Positions 35,794-43,727 of a stretch of DNA of 64,000 bases are shown in pieces; the first letter of the stretch is position 1; each line of letters begins with the position of its first letter. Location of the stretch: contig JAACMV010000030.1 in the NCBI GenBank assembly GCA_010909725.1, forward strand, positions 744,001-808,000, in the 5' to 3' direction. The notes below the pieces were generated by a model that did not search any database, was not told where the DNA came from, and saw nothing but the letters and a program-made list of their open reading frames with translations. The position numbers were made by a program, and so were the translations under genes. The stretch comes from Picochlorum sp. 'celeri'. Its lineage: Eukaryota > Chlorophyta > Trebouxiophyceae.

Positions 35794-37368
35794 CTAGACG
35801 TGCCATTCATCATCATTATTATTATCCACTAATAATATAATATGCTCTTGTTGTCTGCTACAACACGTGGCAAATTGTAACGCTGACATTCTTCTCCTCC
35901 TCATTCCGGCCAAAATAGTAGCTGCCATCATTTCACATTTTCGAGAAGTCTCCCCATCATCCTTTCTTTTCCTTTGGACTGCGCCATGATCACTCTCTTG
36001 TACCGGACTTGGAGTCTCTACCTGCCTGTCCCTTCTATTTGAACTTGGTCCTGTGGTACCGAGCTGGGATGGCCATGCATGTCCTGATGGGCTTGTACCA
36101 GATGCGTTCTGAGCTTTGCACAGGGTCTTCAAGTCTCTCGTAAGACTATCATGTGTGACATCCACTGGCATAGTGATGTTGATATCGCTCACAAGTCCCA
36201 GAGCATGGGCTTTGTATAGGATGGAAGAGCACAAGCGGACAAGGCGGCACAGTTCGTCCTGCTGGTGTCCAGTACCGATCTGGCGGGACGCATCCAAAGC
36301 ATCAGGATGTTTTGGTTGTCCATTGAATCCTGGAAGAGAATCTTCGGTAGGAATTTCTCGACATGGCAAGATGGAGTCAGGGGACGTATCAAGAGCACCC
36401 CCATCAAGGGCATTCTGCTCTGATGTGACGCCACTACCATCTCGTCCTGATACCATTTTTTGTCGCACCGGAGAACGCGGAGAAATATCATCATCCTGTA
36501 GGCCATCAAATTTTAATGGCGAACCTTGGAGTAGATCCCCTTCGCAAGACTGTGGCAAAGGCTCATTGAAGCCTTGTGCTAATGTGTCACCATCTGCCCC
36601 ACTTCTTGGCTGCACAGCGCGCGCAGCAACACGCCCTACGTTGTCATTATCTGATGATCTTTGGCGCTTACCATTGCCACTCGATGGCGATGGGTACTCT
36701 CGAGGACTGATAGCCCTTTCCTGGCGCTCAGATGAAGTAGATGTCAGAATAGATGCATTCATCAGCGAGATCTGCGATTCCCTAAGTTTAACGGCATCCT
36801 CCCCCTTGATTTTCCTGGAGAGACTTCTGTTCGTCGAGCTTAACAGCGCCTTCCAGTTCTGATTCCGTGCGAGATCACTATGGCTACCATTGCACCGGAT
36901 ATATGTACAAAGAAGGACACGGATGCATACTGCTGCAGTTCGTGTCAAATCTCCGAATCTATTCAGCTGCATTGACGCCTCAAAAACCATGGAGAGCTCC
37001 GTTTTGGCTTCTGTAACTATGGAGGAGGATTTCTCCAATGAAGGTTTGAAATCATCAGTCGACACTATAAAAAACCTATGTGATGTGCTGCTTCCTTTAC
37101 TGTCTTCTGGATAGACGATAAGATTTGCATCACCCATGAGACATTTCACTATTCTTTTGAATTGTCTATATACACTTTCTGCTGAAAATTCTTCGGGAAA
37201 AATGATTTCACAGTGGACAAATGGCAGTTGTCCACCTTCCAGAAGACTGAACCTGTTGCAGGTGTGATGAAGTCCACATCGAACCTCGATCGTTCTATTC
37301 GTCTCATAATAAATCTCATGGAGTTTGGTTCTGAGACCTTCCTGGAATTCATCGCTAAAGTAGGCCAT
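35794..37368 (-). CDS. Unrecognised tandem-duplicated protein, paralogue A
   Basis: Single exon, 524 residues from the ATG at 37368. I do not recognise the family. Visible parts: a folded-looking N-terminal half (~1-165) with RCGLHHTCNRFSL, VHCEIIFPEEFS and VKCLMGDANLIVYPED; a Ser/Arg/Gly-rich middle with a possible nuclear signal (NGKRQRSSD); a segment highly similar to paralogue B (DDDISPRSPVRQKMVSG to DALDASRQIGTG..DELCRLVRLCSS); and a basic C-terminus (GMRRRRMS). Against paralogue B the N-terminal half is much less alike than the middle. No signal peptide or membrane segment. The stop codon is 36 nt from that of poly(A) polymerase. Confidence 0.75.
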   Translation of the reverse strand: MAYFSDEFQEGLRTKLHEIYYETNRTIEVRCGLHHTCNRFSLLEGGQLPFVHCEIIFPEEFSAESVYRQFKRIVKCLMGDANLIVYPEDSKGSSTSHRFFIVSTDDFKPSLEKSSSIVTEAKTELSMVFEASMQLNRFGDLTRTAAVCIRVLLCTYIRCNGSHSDLARNQNWKALLSSTNRSLSRKIKGEDAVKLRESQISLMNASILTSTSSERQERAISPREYPSPSSGNGKRQRSSDNDNVGRVAARAVQPRSGADGDTLAQGFNEPLPQSCEGDLLQGSPLKFDGLQDDDISPRSPVRQKMVSGRDGSGVTSEQNALDGGALDTSPDSILPCREIPTEDSLPGFNGQPKHPDALDASRQIGTGHQQDELCRLVRLCSSILYKAHALGLVSDINITMPVDVTHDSLTRDLKTLCKAQNASGTSPSGHAWPSQLGTTGPSSNRRDRQVETPSPVQESDHGAVQRKRKDDGETSRKCEMMAATILAGMRRRRMSALQFATCCSRQQEHIILLVDNNNDDEWHV

Positions 37369-37975
37369 TGTACGTTCGTTTGGCAAAGAAAGAGAAAAAG
37401 AAAGCAAGAAAAAACCCGAAAAGCACTCTATGCTATATCACCGTTGCCTCTGCATATCGGAAATAGTAAGATGTCTATCAATGGTTGTGAATTGGATAGA
37501 ACAAGCCGCGACAAAGTGTTTGTGACAGAATTGTTGATTCGAGCTGATCGAGTAGTAGATGTCGCTCGCAGCGGTTGAAACCGTTTCGAGCGGTGATCAG
37601 CTTGCAAACATGGGTTCAACACACATATATACATCAATATTTCATATCTATGTGATACGAATCACATGTGACAGCACGTACAAGAGTTTCGGTTCGAAGT
37701 TGACTTTGCGTTCGACTACTCTCAGCACTTGAGAAGAAAGACAGTCGGTACCTAAACAGAGAATAATTACTACTCCTGTTGGATATATAATATGAATTGG
37801 AGGGCTATTACATGCTGCAGTGCCTCATGATGGCGGAGTTTTGCGGATTGATTCTCGAATCGTGTGTCCTTCAAAGCGCGGGTAAATTCAAATCTTGGGA
37901 TTCGATTGACAGCCCCTGTCAAAGGCTCTATCCGAAGGGATCGTGGGAAACCCTTCCCTGAGATGGATGCAGAAA
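37369..37975 (-). repeat. 5' flank of paralogue A, near-identical to the flank of paralogue B
   Basis: Upstream of the start codon, about 430 nt correspond position by position to the flank of paralogue B at a constant offset of 1960 nt, with only a few substitutions and one 4-nt length difference; more diverged similarity continues to ~37970. The match stops abruptly at codon 2-3 of the genes. The flank includes a purine-rich leader (agagaaaaagaaagc) and two inverted repeats. It contains an identical 69-codon open frame in both copies, which is expected from the DNA identity and is not counted as a gene. Confidence 0.88.
37563..37667. promoter_or_regulatory. Two inverted repeats upstream of paralogue A
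   Basis: Repeat 1 (37563-37592): arms CGCTCG and CGAGCG enclose a second pair CGGTT/AACCG. Repeat 2 (37650-37667): ATGTGAT, 4-nt spacer ACGA, ATCACAT, a perfect 7-bp dyad. They lie ~195-300 nt before the start codon and recur at the same distances before paralogue B. They look like binding sites for dimeric proteins or, for repeat 1, an RNA hairpin if transcribed. Confidence 0.55.
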
Positions 37976-38089: not shown

Positions 38090-39328
38090 TTATGATTCCG
38101 ACACTCTTCTCCTCCTCATTCCTGCCAAAGTAGAAACTGCCGTCATTTCATCATTCTTTTTCTCGCACACGGCCTTCAAGTCTTTTTTGAGACTTTCATG
38201 TGTAATATGCACCAACATGGCGCGCTTATCAATACTCAAAAGTCCCAGAGCATGGGCTTGTAAGAGCATGGAAGAGCATGTGCGGACAAGGCGGCACAGT
38301 TTGTCCTGTGGGTGTCCAGTACTGATCTGGCGGGACGCATCCAAAGCATCAGGACGTCTTGGTAAGATACCATTGAATCCTGGAAGAGACTCTGCGGCAG
38401 GAGTTCCTTGACATGTTGGCTGCGGCAAGACAGAGTCAGGGGACGTATCAAAAGCACCCTCATCAGAGGCATTCTGCTCTGATGTGTCGCCACTGCCATC
38501 TCCTCCTGGTACCATTTTTGGTCGCACCAGAGAGCGTGGAGAAACATCATCATCCTGCTGTAGGCCATCATTCCGTTGCCTCTTAGAAGTACCTCTCGAT
38601 GCTGATGCATCTTGTCGTGGATCAAATGAGAGTCTTGGATTGGTACCCGTTTCCAGGCGCCCATCTGAAGTAGAAATTGCTTCACCTGCCTTCATCAGAG
38701 TTCTCTGTGCCTCCCTTATCGTTTGTTTGTCTCCTTTCAAGTCCTTTCTCAAGAAATTCTTCACCTCCTGATACAGACACTTCCAGTTTTGATTCTCTTG
38801 AAGAACCACGTATCTACAGGTGCACATCATGTGAACACATAGTTTGAGACGGATGCTAGTGCGTGCTATGGACGTCAGTTCTCCAGCACGAGTCCCCTGC
38901 ATACATGCCTCGCACACTACTGAGAGTGCTTGTTGGGCTTCTTCGTCATCGGCGAGGAGTTCCTCCAGTGAAGATTTGAGATCCATGGGCAACACGTTAA
39001 AAAATGAGTGCGTTGTGCCAACCACCTTGCATGGGTAGACAATATGTTCGGTACGACCCATAAGTCTTTTCAGTATAAGTTTGACCCTCATATCGACAAC
39101 ATCCTTTGAGACCTTCGTGGGAAAGTCTATTTCAAAATGGTGATATGGCCGGTTTTCATCCTCCTGAAGACTAAACTTGTCCCTGATGTGGTGAGATCCA
39201 CATCGGATGTTAATCCCATTCTCTTGACTCTCCCGATAAAATACTTGATGCAGTTCACTTTTCATCGTTTCCTGTGATTCTTCACAGCAGGTGCCATTGA
39301 GGGCAGCAAGTCTTCCGATGCTGGCCAT
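38090..39328 (-). CDS. Unrecognised tandem-duplicated protein, paralogue B
   Basis: Single exon, 412 residues from the ATG at 39328. Same layout as paralogue A: N-terminal half (RCGSHHIRDKFSLQED, LKRLMGRTEHIVYPC, SVVCEACMQGTRAGELTS), a shorter basic middle (SRGTSKRQRND), the strongly conserved segment (DDDVSPRSLVRPKMVPG to DALDASRQISTGHPQDKLCR), and GMRRRRVSES at the end. Relative to A the middle is ~110 residues shorter and the last ~20 residues are lost, because the homologous 3' sequence continues after the stop in another frame. Function unknown. Confidence 0.75.
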   Translation of the reverse strand: MASIGRLAALNGTCCEESQETMKSELHQVFYRESQENGINIRCGSHHIRDKFSLQEDENRPYHHFEIDFPTKVSKDVVDMRVKLILKRLMGRTEHIVYPCKVVGTTHSFFNVLPMDLKSSLEELLADDEEAQQALSVVCEACMQGTRAGELTSIARTSIRLKLCVHMMCTCRYVVLQENQNWKCLYQEVKNFLRKDLKGDKQTIREAQRTLMKAGEAISTSDGRLETGTNPRLSFDPRQDASASRGTSKRQRNDGLQQDDDVSPRSLVRPKMVPGGDGSGDTSEQNASDEGAFDTSPDSVLPQPTCQGTPAAESLPGFNGILPRRPDALDASRQISTGHPQDKLCRLVRTCSSMLLQAHALGLLSIDKRAMLVHITHESLKKDLKAVCEKKNDEMTAVSTLAGMRRRRVSES

Positions 39329-39928
39329 GGTTCGTTCGTTTGGCAAAGAAAGAGAAAAAGAAAGCAAGAAAAAACCCGAAAAGCACTCTATGCTATATCA
39401 CCGTTGCCTCTGCATATCGGAAATAGTAAGATGTCTATCAATGGTTGTGAATTGGATAGAACAAGCCGCGACAAAGTGTTTGTGACAGAATTGTTGATTC
39501 GAGCTGATCGAGTAGTAGATGTCGCTCGCAGCGGTTGAAACCGTTTCGAGCGGTGATCAGCTTGCAAACATGGGTTCAACACACATATATACATCAATAT
39601 TTCATATCTATGTGATACGAATCACATATGACAGGACGTACAAGAGTTTCGGTTCGAAGTTGACTTTGCGTTCGACTACTCTCAGCACTTGAGAAGAAGA
39701 AAAGACAGTCGGTACCTAAACAGAGAATAATTACTACTCCTGTTGGATATATAATATGAATTGGAGGGCAATTACATGCTGCAGTGCCTCATGATGGCGG
39801 AGTTTTGCTGATTAGTGTGTCCTTCAAAGCGCGGGTAAATTCAAAATCCTAGGATTCCGTTGACATGCCCTGTCAAAGGCTCTTTTGAAGGGATCGTGGG
39901 AAACCCTTCCCCGAGATGGTAAATGTAT
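39329..39928 (-). repeat. 5' flank of paralogue B, near-identical to the flank of paralogue A
   Basis: Counterpart of 37369-37975. Differences seen by eye in the first ~430 nt are a few substitutions (for example CACATATGACAGG versus CACATGTGACAGC) and an extra AAGA within GAGAAGAAGAAAAGAC. Similarity weakens beyond ~39780 and ends at ~39928 after AAACCCTTCCCCGAGATGG. This marks the outer end of the duplicated unit. Confidence 0.88.
39523..39628. promoter_or_regulatory. Two inverted repeats upstream of paralogue B
   Basis: Repeat 1 (39523-39552) is identical to that of paralogue A. Repeat 2 (39609-39628) is TATGTGAT, spacer ACGA, ATCACATA: here the dyad is 8 bp per arm because one of the few substitutions between the flanks extends the symmetry. 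Confidence 0.55.
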
Positions 39929-40053
39929 CCCATCAAAAGGAACGTTTGACCGGACATAGAAGATATGTTAGGAGATGTGAGACTCTCTTGGTCAAAATCG
40001 ACTTGTGGTGTGATTACAGATGAATATAAACGTATAGAAGAAGACAATGATGC

Positions 40054-40058
40054 AAAAA
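40054..40058 (-). terminator. Pol III T5 terminator of the permuted tRNA
   Basis: Five T on the minus strand, 5 nt after the end of the 5' half. Its position after the 5' half, not after the 3' half, shows the transcription unit is the permuted order. Confidence 0.75.
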
Positions 40059-40063
40059 CAGGT

Positions 40064-40166
40064 TGCAAAGCAGATACTCTAACCACTGAGCCACAGCCCC
40101 TTTGACCGGACGATACATCGTCAGCCGCACTGGAGCTGGGAGGAATCGAACCCCCGACCCTCTGCA
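40064..40166 (-). tRNA. trnA-UGC: Permuted tRNA-Ala (anticodon UGC): 3' half before 5' half
   Basis: On the minus strand the 3' half comes first (40166 down to 40131), then a 30-nt intervening sequence (40130-40101), then the 5' half (40100-40064). Joined end to start through the anticodon loop (positions 37/38) they give a 73-nt tRNA with every stem closed: acceptor GGGGCTG/CAGCTCC (7 bp, including the G3-U70 pair that marks alanine tRNAs), D stem GCTC/GAGT, anticodon stem TCTGC/GCAGA, T stem GGGGG/CCTCC, loop TTTGCAT, discriminator A73. The A box TGGCTCAGTGG and B box GGTTCGATTCC are consensus but in reversed order. A TATA-like ATATAC lies just upstream and a T5 run just downstream. Maturation would require a circular intermediate cut by tRNA splicing endonuclease and RNase P/Z, as shown for such genes in Cyanidioschyzon. 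Confidence 0.93.
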
Positions 40167-40236
40167 TGTTTGTAGACTACATATACCGAATTTTTTCCAA
40201 TATCTGAACTGTGTTTTACCAACACGCGGGACAGCG

Positions 40237-40609
40237 TTTTTTTTTTTTTTTTTTTTTGAGCCGTGTTTTCTGCACGCCAAGGCCCTGGACAGCGGATCCG
40301 ACCGCCCCTTGGTGTGCTGAAGAAGCAAGAGAGTGAGAAAATCTGGGCCGACACAAAGTTGCTGCTTGCGTGGGCGGCCTCCTCGTGAGGGAACCCGGCT
40401 GCCTGTGCGACTGAGGAAGCTTGGGGTGTCAATGAGAAGCGCCCACGTTGCAAGTGGTTCCTTCCTGGTGGCCCGTGCCTGTCAGGAGACAGAGCAGTGA
40501 CCGCCAGCTGGGTGTCCAGATACCATTCCAGGCATGTGAGGATTGCACTCACTAAAAACTCACTCCCACACCTCGGGATGGGATCACCCAACCCCTTGGC
40601 GTCGACTGG
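40237..40609 (-). mobile_element. SINE-like poly(A)-tailed element, copy 1
   Basis: On the minus strand the element ends in 21 A (40237-40257). Adjacent ~135 nt (40258-40392) are shared with copy 2, including an imperfect hairpin GCACACCAAGG/CCTTGGCGTGC (40272-40317) and TTTTCTCACTCTCTTGCTTC. The remaining part (40393-40609) has no counterpart in copy 2 and may be the 5' region of a fuller copy. GC-rich against its surroundings. No reading frame that looks like protein; no target-site duplication identified with confidence. The tail sits 70 nt upstream of the permuted tRNA. Confidence 0.7.
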
Positions 40610-40770
40610 TTTTTTTTTTTTTTGAGTCGTGTTTTCTGCACGCCAAGGCCCTGGAACAGCGGTTCAAACGGCCCCTTGGTGTGCTGAAGAAGCAAGAGAG
40701 TGAGAAAATCTGGTCACACCAGAAAGTTGCTGTTTGCGTGGGCGGCCTTCTCGGGAGGAATGTTGCCCTG
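40610..40770 (-). mobile_element. SINE-like poly(A)-tailed element, copy 2
   Basis: Same orientation as copy 1. Fourteen A at the 3' end (40610-40623), then the shared region with the same hairpin (40638-40684; the stem arms are kept while the loop differs: ACAGCGG..CGACCGC versus ACAGCGG..CAAACGG). Similarity to copy 1 fades at ~40760, suggesting 5' truncation or divergence. Confidence 0.7.
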
Positions 40771-41542: not shown

Positions 41543-41807
41543 TGTGATCAAAATTGACGTTCTCAAGAATGGTGATGTTGGGTAGTAAATACAACACTGC
41601 TGCTCGGCGTCTATTTGTGTTCGATTTGTCACTGATTTTCTTTCTTATATTGTTTCTCTCACCCCTGCAATGCTACTGGACCTGGTGAATTGCGCACGGC
41701 ATTCGTCGACAATCTCCCTTTTTATTATTTTAATTAAGGCATTCATGCCCAACTTGGGCTGTTGCAACCAGATGTGCATCATAATTATGTGATACAAAAG
41801 AAAAAAA

Positions 41808-43727
41808 ATGAATGGCAAGGGTAATCAAGAAGAAGACTCTGTGGTGTATATAACCGTGATTGGTGACCAGGGCGTCGGGAAGACGTCTTTGATCGCTGCT
41901 GCTGCGACGGAAACATTTCCCGACAACCCTCCACCGGTTCTTCCACCTGCCAAATTACCGGCAGATACCACACCGGAAGGAGTTCCAGTCGTAATTACAG
42001 ACACGAGCACGAGATCAGAAGACAAAGAAGCGCTGGAAGCAGCATGTCGGCAAGCCAGTGTTATTGTGCTCTGTTTTCGCATGGAGAAGTTGGAGAGTTT
42101 AAGAAGAATATCTTCATATTGGATGCCAGAGTTGAAACGACTACATGTTCAGGTTCCTGTCTTGTTGGTCGGTTGTAAGAGTGATATTCGACCAGCTGAT
42201 CAGTCTCTGCACAAAGCTGTGCTTCCGATCGTTAAATCGTATCCTCAGATTGAGACATGTATGGAATGTTCGTCCAAAAAGCTGCAGTTTGTTGGAGAAG
42301 TATTCTATTACGCGTTGAAGGCGGTTGTGTACCCAATGACACCGCTATATGACCCAGAGAGCCAGTTGCTCCAACCACTGTGTGTTCGGGCATTGAAAAG
42401 GATATTCGCACTGTGTGACCAAGATAAAGATGGGGTTTTAAATGATATAGAGCTCAATGAGTTCCAGATGAGATGTTTTAATGCACCGTTGCAGCCAGAG
42501 GAGCTTGCTGGTGTGAAAGAGGTGGTCAAGTCTCGAATGGAAAGTGGCCTCTCGCCAAAGGGTTTCCTCACATTTCAAGGGTTTTTGTTCCTCCATGCTT
42601 TATTTATAGAACGGGGCCGATTGGAGACGACGTGGGCTGTCCTATCGAAATTTGGCTATGGGAAGGACCTGAAGCTCAGGGGTGAACTTTTGATGCTGAA
42701 GACTGCACAAGACACGCCAATGCAACTAACAGAATTCGGAGAGACCTACTTTTATGACATATTCAATAAATTTGACGCCGATAATGACGCTGCCTTATCG
42801 ACAAGAGAGCAAGAAGACTTGTTTTCATCATTTCCTGAAGCTCCGTCATTATTGCAGAGAAGTAGTACAAGTTCTGGCATTATTTTTGAGCGAACAAAGA
42901 AAGGCCTTTTGACTCGCAATGGTTTTATGGCAATGTGGAATTATTTAGCCACCAAGTCACCCAAAGAGTTGATAGCAAGTGCCATTTACTTGGGACTTGA
43001 TTGTGAGAAAGATGGAGCAATTCTCGCCCAATTATTAGAACCAAGAAAAATGCAGGAGCCCAAAGTAGTACAGTGTAGTTTGTTTTCTCATGATGAAATG
43101 GATGTTTCAGAGGCAATCGCAGGACTGGTGCAGCCAAACAGCCAGTCATCATCCGGTGTGATCTTGGGCTCTGCCGGACTTGTTGAAAAAAACAACAAAA
43201 CTAGTACTCTGGTTCTGCGATCGGTGCCTCTATCACTGGCGCCTACAATTATTGAAGCCAGTGATAGATCATCTGGCTTATCTACGTTGGATGCTGCCGC
43301 CTTCGCATTTGACTGGTCCAAGCCCAAACAAATTTCAACTCTTGTAGAAGGCATGCTTTCACTAGCATCTGCCGCAGGGGATACTCTGCCGTGTATTTTA
43401 ATAGGTTTCAATAGAGATCAAGCTTCAGAGTCTTTCGTTGCGGAAGTTCAAATGATCTGCGACAGCCTAGGAATATCAGAGCCATTGAATTTTGACCCCA
43501 GGGACAGTGGCAGTGTGTACAGTAATCTCGTTGATGCCGCATCAACGCCTGAGGGACATATTCCAGAGACTCCGTCTCTCGTAGCAACCAAACGGCACAG
43601 GCGCCTGGTGGCTCGTATCACCATGTATGCTGGAATTGGTACCCTGGTTGGCATTGCGGGATACTTATCATACAGAGCATACCGTGATTATCGATCCTCG
43701 TCCGACCGGGCAGCTACTGCTACATAG
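41808..43727 (+). CDS. MIRO1: Mitochondrial Rho GTPase (Miro)
   Basis: Single exon, 639 residues. N-terminal GTPase with GDQGVGKTSLI (~19-29) and LVGCKSDIR (NKxD-like); EF-hand 1 DQDKDGVLNDIE (~205), EF-hand 2 DADNDAALSTRE (~325), each with the hidden partner helix; C-terminal anchor (TMYAGIGTLVGIAGYLSY, ~605-625) into the outer membrane. Miro proteins govern mitochondrial distribution and shape. The second GTPase domain is degenerate: where the P-loop GxxxxGKS should be, the sequence is VVQCSLFSHDEMDVSEA, and the NKxD position reads FNRD. It therefore probably does not bind GTP there. Confidence 0.93.
   Translation: MNGKGNQEEDSVVYITVIGDQGVGKTSLIAAAATETFPDNPPPVLPPAKLPADTTPEGVPVVITDTSTRSEDKEALEAACRQASVIVLCFRMEKLESLRRISSYWMPELKRLHVQVPVLLVGCKSDIRPADQSLHKAVLPIVKSYPQIETCMECSSKKLQFVGEVFYYALKAVVYPMTPLYDPESQLLQPLCVRALKRIFALCDQDKDGVLNDIELNEFQMRCFNAPLQPEELAGVKEVVKSRMESGLSPKGFLTFQGFLFLHALFIERGRLETTWAVLSKFGYGKDLKLRGELLMLKTAQDTPMQLTEFGETYFYDIFNKFDADNDAALSTREQEDLFSSFPEAPSLLQRSSTSSGIIFERTKKGLLTRNGFMAMWNYLATKSPKELIASAIYLGLDCEKDGAILAQLLEPRKMQEPKVVQCSLFSHDEMDVSEAIAGLVQPNSQSSSGVILGSAGLVEKNNKTSTLVLRSVPLSLAPTIIEASDRSSGLSTLDAAAFAFDWSKPKQISTLVEGMLSLASAAGDTLPCILIGFNRDQASESFVAEVQMICDSLGISEPLNFDPRDSGSVYSNLVDAASTPEGHIPETPSLVATKRHRRLVARITMYAGIGTLVGIAGYLSYRAYRDYRSSSDRAATAT

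Follow-up and report, generated by a model that had tools for sequence, protein, structure and literature searches.

The window analysed here, a 64-kb stretch of the Picochlorum celeri genome (C30:744001-808000), is confirmed to carry a circularly permuted tRNA-Ala(UGC) gene. On the minus strand, the 3' half of the tRNA comes first, followed by a 30-nt spacer and then by the 5' half (40064-40166). The gene and the features around it are:

40131..40166, minus strand: 3' half of tRNA-Ala(UGC), T38-A73, 36 nt (sequence, models R1 and R2, ARAGORN on the joined form)
40101..40130, minus strand: spacer between A73 and G1, 30 nt, with a foldable hairpin GACGAT/ATCGTC at 40122-40109 (sequence, fold)
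40064..40100, minus strand: 5' half of tRNA-Ala(UGC), G1-A37, 37 nt, anticodon TGC at 40067-40065 (sequence, models R1 and R2, ARAGORN on the joined form)
40169..40172, minus strand: leader bases -6 to -3 (CAAA), putative partner of positions 32-35 (TTTG, 40069-40066) in the central helix of the splicing motif
40188..40194, minus strand: AAAATTC, candidate upstream promoter element common to linear tRNA genes, 28 nt before T38
40180..40187, minus strand: TATA-like GGTATATG, of doubtful role (sequence, by-eye comparison with linear tRNA genes)
40054..40058, minus strand: T5 run, predicted RNA polymerase III terminator, 5 nt after A37 (sequence)
38090..39397, minus strand: neighbouring open reading frame, 435 aa between stops, from a Picochlorum gene family and outside the tRNA gene

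When the halves are joined (1-37 + 38-73), they give a 73-nt molecule that ARAGORN types as tRNA-Ala(tgc). Counting G-U pairs, all four stems are paired; the G3-U70 pair and A73 are present, and the canonical bases U8, G18G19, U33, TTC 54-56 and G15:C48 can be read from its sequence. The A box (TGGCTCAGTGG) and the B box (GGTTCGATTCC) are both present, in reversed order. The locus combines reversed halves on one strand, a short spacer and a canonical joined tRNA, the hallmarks of a type II (37/38) permuted gene, and lacks the 5'-half-first order of a linear one. A first-pass annotation had proposed swapped halves 30 nt apart on the minus strand, a fully paired 73-nt alanine tRNA, reversed A and B boxes and a T5 run behind the 5' half (40058-40054), all of which hold.

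That annotation had also called for a scan with a permuted model. As an independent measure we used R2, a covariance model made solely from this genome's own linear tRNAs, seven of them, permuted in silico; it contains no Ala and no permuted gene. R2 returned 40064-40166(-) with 50.9 bits and a rough E-value of 2e-14, and no second match at E 10 or below anywhere in the 64 kb. Model R1, whose E-values are likewise rough, gave 77.1 bits at the locus, a score that is not independent because R1 also takes in the six real permuted Ala sequences of the genome, the window's included; synthetic permuted Glu and Asp rows were left out of alignment A2 before model building. As anticipated, linear searches are blind to the locus: ARAGORN reported 0 tRNAs on the window and Rfam 0 matches at the gathering score.

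Folding energy did not distinguish the locus from shuffled sequences (z -0.72 for the 103 nt, z -0.13 with flanks), and the minimum-energy fold of the window RNA displaces the anticodon stem. The spacer hairpin alone was not significant either (z -1.29 against shuffles); most of the six Ala spacers show a hairpin (z -0.73 to -3.4), and we do not claim them as a common feature. Thermodynamic stability was accordingly rejected as support, the z values being not significant.

Permuted tRNA genes across the genome

We searched the phased diploid genome (27,412,692 bases in 30 contigs), whose assembly has been described as 27.43 Mbp long, its two sets comprising 15 scaffolds each (Becker et al. 2020, PMC7225527). 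A DNA search with the locus revealed that its other haplotype, on C4, is a permuted Ala(UGC) gene too, and further permuted genes were found for Ala(CGC) on C10/C16 and for Ala(AGC) on C4/C30 near 266-267 kb. The genome thus holds six permuted tRNA-Ala sequences, three loci in two haplotypes, and ARAGORN recognizes all joined forms as tRNA-Ala with TGC, CGC or AGC anticodons, a set that would decode all four Ala codons under standard decoding.

No linear counterpart emerged from several searches of the genome. A pattern for the Ala 3' end (at most 2 mismatches) had exactly 6 matches, all at the permuted Ala sites. The 5' end pattern had 16, of which 6 lie at these sites, and ARAGORN detected no linear tRNA at any of the 16 loci. 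The joined Ala tRNA, used as a query, was matched as halves only, in a search that gave four candidates and missed the AGC loci. There was no linear Ala among 52 ARAGORN calls in 139 loci of the genome, nor among the 34 linear RF00005 matches typed by ARAGORN, some of whose intron-bearing labels are doubtful. Of 866 candidates the RF00005 linear search scored 63, and at least two linear tRNAs with introns, L097 and L125, escaped it; ARAGORN labels these Phe(gaa) and Ser(act), and by eye they read as Ser and Arg. Because this search was bounded and missed two linear tRNAs, an undetected linear Ala gene, unlikely as it is, retains a small probability. A plant-type tRNA-Ala query gave no match, a weak result obtained without a known positive, and the permuted Ala pattern had 0 matches in viral contigs. 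A linear tRNA-Ala(UGC) elsewhere, which the first-pass annotation had named as evidence against its reading, was thus not found within bounded genome searches, and we infer that no nuclear genes other than the permuted ones supply tRNA-Ala.

The permuted arrangement extends to other amino acids. The T-arm pattern GGTTCRAWYCC matched the genome 135 times (74 + 61), and 100 of these matches were listed; 47 T-arm places were examined with R1, 45 of them among the 100 matches listed and 2 from another search, and the R1 runs also covered five 10-kb loci carrying the Ala genes. Seven more permuted genes were found among the 47, two for Arg and five for Cys, Leu and Ser (loci L126, L128, L098, L134 and L133):

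C8:59103-59613 (L120) and C8:537415-537925 (L123), opposite orientations: two near-identical permuted Arg(UCG) genes, spacer 128 nt (ARAGORN after joining)
Permuted Cys(GCA), spacer 11 nt (R1; ARAGORN on the joined form)
Permuted Leu(CAG), spacer 58 nt (R1; ARAGORN on the joined form)
Permuted Leu(AAG), spacer 48 nt (R1; ARAGORN on the joined form)
Permuted Leu(UAA), spacer 20 nt (by eye from the model alignment)
Permuted Ser(GCU), spacer 38 nt (by eye from the model alignment)

With the three Ala loci counted, the places examined yield at least 10 permuted tRNA loci per haploid genome.

Allele divergence, stem conservation and junction register

The two haplotypes differ at 10/73, 8/72 and 17/72 aligned mature positions at the three Ala loci (window against L010 on C4, L011 against L012, and L018 against L039), while for permuted Cys and Ser the two haplotypes show no difference in either the tRNA or the spacer. 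In 50-bp bins across the window locus, identity between haplotypes is 64-82% at 40050-40250 and 80-100% at 39350-40050 (12 of 14 bins at or above 90%), and it is lower again at 39250-39350, where the alignment starts; about 430 bases at about 40320-40750 are unique to the window haplotype in this two-haplotype comparison. By eye, D-arm types are common across loci and not within them (GCTC is held in common with the CGC sequence of C10, and GCAT occurs in the UGC sequence of C4 and the AGC sequence of C30), and the window spacer resembles those of the AGC genes. These common D-arm types and spacers suggest recombination between the Ala loci. A broader proposal, that every alanine codon is read only through permuted, circle-derived tRNAs and that exchange of D-arms and spacers between loci gives rise to divergent, foldable alleles, is tentative, and in our judgement the odds lean against it as a whole. 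GAAATTC occurs in the Arg spacer, which also has a hairpin-like stretch adjoining G1 and looks as though it had retained the leader of a former linear gene; this would fit tandem duplication followed by loss of the outer halves.

The 3' flank of the window gene (about 39320-40058) is a repeat that also occurs near the other Ala loci, accompanied at several of them by parts of a Picochlorum gene family. The paralogous reading frames at 38090-39397 (-) and 35794-37437 (-) belong to this one family, for which a Pfam search returned nothing significant (best E 0.18 and 0.2) and homologues comprise 9 proteins, three from Picochlorum sp. SENEW3 and two labelled Picre1, a JGI label that we take to stand for P. 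renovo; the named ones are all from Picochlorum. A tandem copy of the family's reading frame is seemingly present in the window haplotype only. On the other strand, the reading frame at 41793-43727 (+) encodes Ras, EF-hand and EF_assoc domains, as in Miro mitochondrial GTPases.

Despite many changes among the Ala sequences, the cloverleaf is maintained. Of the 126 pair cells in the six sequences, 97.6% are standard, and 8 of 21 pairs are altered on both sides. Not one of 500 shuffles matched the pairing, the both-side changes or the covariation score, but further pair types were ordinary in number (204/500 shuffles). The compensatory signal is located in the anticodon, D and T stems. The acceptor stem is invariant across the six sequences and is therefore uninformative on covariation, and three of the 24 D-stem cells are unpaired, in the AGC sequence of C30 and others.

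The junction is conserved as well. Eukaryotic tRNA splicing is expected to involve an A-I pair between position 32 and the base that lies three nt ahead of the 3' cut. At the window junction, all four pairs of TTTG/CAAA can form beside a 3-nt bulge, giving a bulge-helix in the relaxed hBH form. Across 12 permuted sequences, 36 of 48 cells of the 4-bp helix are paired at the -3 register, whereas the 11 other offsets give 15-27. All 12 sequences except Ser can form the 32/-3 pair; permuting leaders among nine locus representatives gave a p value of 0.00095. Positions 32-35 are thus predicted to form a helix with the leader, in the register expected for tRNA splicing in eukaryotes.

These observations bear on the idea that the gene is a relic, a rearranged tRNA pseudogene within a repeat, with the working tRNA-Ala supplied by an undetected linear gene. 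The position of the Ala loci within a repeated segment, the strong divergence of their alleles and the bounded linear search would all sit well with such a relic. A tRNA pseudogene is expected to lose stems and conserved bases, whereas here 97.6% of cells remain paired between haplotypes and paralogues despite many changes, the comparison in which we looked for the loss of pairing that the first-pass annotation had named as contrary evidence. The stems have been maintained through compensatory changes and the junction register has been kept, while no linear Ala appeared among the 34 RF00005 matches, the 139 loci scanned with ARAGORN or the Ala-end patterns. On the strength of the covariation and the failure of bounded searches to find a linear copy we reject the relic, which we consider very unlikely, in favour of a functional permuted gene.

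Transcription signals and the proposed maturation pathway

Upstream of the linear tRNA genes, we noticed the motif [AG]AAATT[CT], which, although picked after inspection of the sequences, occurs within 70 nt upstream of 9 of 17 linear sequences and of 5 of 6 permuted Ala 3' halves, counts that none of 1000 shuffles equalled in either set, against a background of 231 of 8448 windows that overlap and include allele pairs. The 17 linear sequences, drawn from 30, represent 15 loci, Phe and Trp being present as both alleles. AAATTC alone precedes 3 of the 6 permuted Ala halves, a count reached by 5 of 1000 shuffles. Among the 11 permuted sequences with a full leader (those of Leu(UAA) and Ser are too short to score) the degenerate motif is found in 7, including Arg 2/2, Cys 0/1 and Leu 0/2; it is missing from one AGC allele, the Cys gene and two Leu genes. 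The motif may serve RNA polymerase III as an upstream element in this genome. In the linear genes L003, L007, L069, L071, L073, L074, L087, L088 and L089, it lies 23-58 nt before the gene start. The TATA-like element that the first-pass annotation placed before the 3' half does exist (GGTATATG, 40187-40180), but its role is doubtful, since the octamer ends only 13 nt before T38 and is not general among linear tRNA genes, of which Ile(AAU) has TATATA (by eye).

Downstream of the 5' half, a run of four or more T begins within 36 nt in 13 of 13 permuted sequences (16% for a 40-nt background), the first T4 run of the AGC genes lying 30-36 nt away. The window gene therefore has a putative promoter element before its 3' half, a putative terminator after its 5' half and no T4 in its spacer. 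The earlier suggestion that the permuted unit itself is transcribed accordingly gains support, at the level of sequence, from the order of the halves, the cloverleaf, the junction register, the upstream element, the T run and the covarying relatives.

A split tRNA, its halves transcribed apart and joined in trans, would look identical at a 37/38 splice. Against it stand the 30-nt distance between the halves, their common strand and the lack of a T4 between them. T4 is likewise absent from the spacers of 13 of 13 permuted sequences, a regularity that is weak alone (6.8% by chance), and we consider joining in trans even less likely than the relic. An assembly artefact such as a misjoined tandem copy has a negligible probability and is rejected, even though the published assembly was polished with long reads only (PMC7225527), because three Ala loci have this arrangement in each haplotype and seven further genes repeat it, with Cys and Ser identical between haplotypes.

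The sequence evidence is best explained by a functional type II permuted tRNA-Ala(UGC) gene, a reading to which we assign a probability of roughly 0.93: a single transcript would be cut and joined at 37/38 into a circle, which would then be opened at the acceptor stem to release a mature alanine tRNA. RNA polymerase III would transcribe the unit from the upstream element before the 3' half to the T run after the 5' half. In the folded transcript, which would form the T, acceptor, D and anticodon arms, the spacer would be the loop that closes the acceptor stem. The tRNA-splicing machinery would cleave on both sides of the junction (leader/T38 and A37/trailer), and ligation of A37 to T38 would yield the circle, from which RNase P and tRNase Z would excise the spacer before CCA addition and alanine charging. 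We infer circularisation of the window tRNA from these features; a comparable circle pathway has been described for Cyanidioschyzon merolae (PMC3978253).

Candidate genes for this machinery are present, with 9 genome matches to the PF01974 endonuclease and 2 to RtcB, one per haplotype, which we regard as candidate splicing-endonuclease and RtcB-ligase genes. Seven of the PF01974 matches have an equal score and a 112-aa frame (C9, C12 and C26 at 1564-1779, C25:30222, C21:81237, C10:613187 and C16:614070), and look like a dispersed copy family; those on C9, C12 and C26 occupy the same position near contig ends, and the other pair lies on C7/C24.

Relation to known permuted tRNA genes

Knowledge of permuted tRNA genes dates from Soma et al. 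2007 (as cited by PMC12633428). A 2014 review tabulates 34 of them, with a longest spacer of 74 bp and Ala listed once, for C. merolae, with another junction (PMC3978253). The Picochlorum genes resemble those of Ostreococcus and Micromonas (Maruyama 2010, as tabulated in that review) in being green algal nuclear genes with a 37/38 junction, an anticodon-loop splicing motif and a spacer region for which no terminator is reported, and M. pusilla shares with this genome permuted genes for Cys(GCA), Leu(UAA) and Ser(GCU); in contrast, the review table has no permuted Ala for those species, and their spacers span 11-64 bp, against 11-128 nt here (PMC3978253).

The likeness to C. merolae lies in number (11 permuted genes there, at least 10 loci here), in a promoter-like upstream element common with linear genes, in a T run after the 5' half and in a permuted Ala(UGC); in C. 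merolae the circle was demonstrated experimentally. The two differ in that the C. merolae Ala(UGC) junction is 59/60 (type IV) and not 37/38, only one permuted Ala is listed there, its longest spacer is 74 bp and its upstream element is TATA-like, whereas here it is AAAATTC (PMC3978253). The first-pass annotation's list of known carriers omits the trebouxiophyte Auxenochlorella, whose strain UTEX 250-A is, by description, similar in its streamlined diploid genome and in a linear tRNA set completed only by permuted genes (PMC12633428). The literature searched contained no report of permuted tRNA genes in Picochlorum. The all-permuted Ala set, the 128-nt Arg spacer and the hyperdivergent Ala alleles appear to be new.

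These findings add a fast-growing green alga to the carriers of permuted tRNA genes, with at least 10 permuted loci per haploid genome, near the eleven of C. merolae, and with one whole amino acid apparently dependent on them. Standard tRNA annotation of such genomes overlooks permuted genes. The variable Ala alleles constitute a natural experiment on the origin and recombination of permuted genes and, if the dependence is true, the need for circular tRNA precursors would be directly testable in a green alga.
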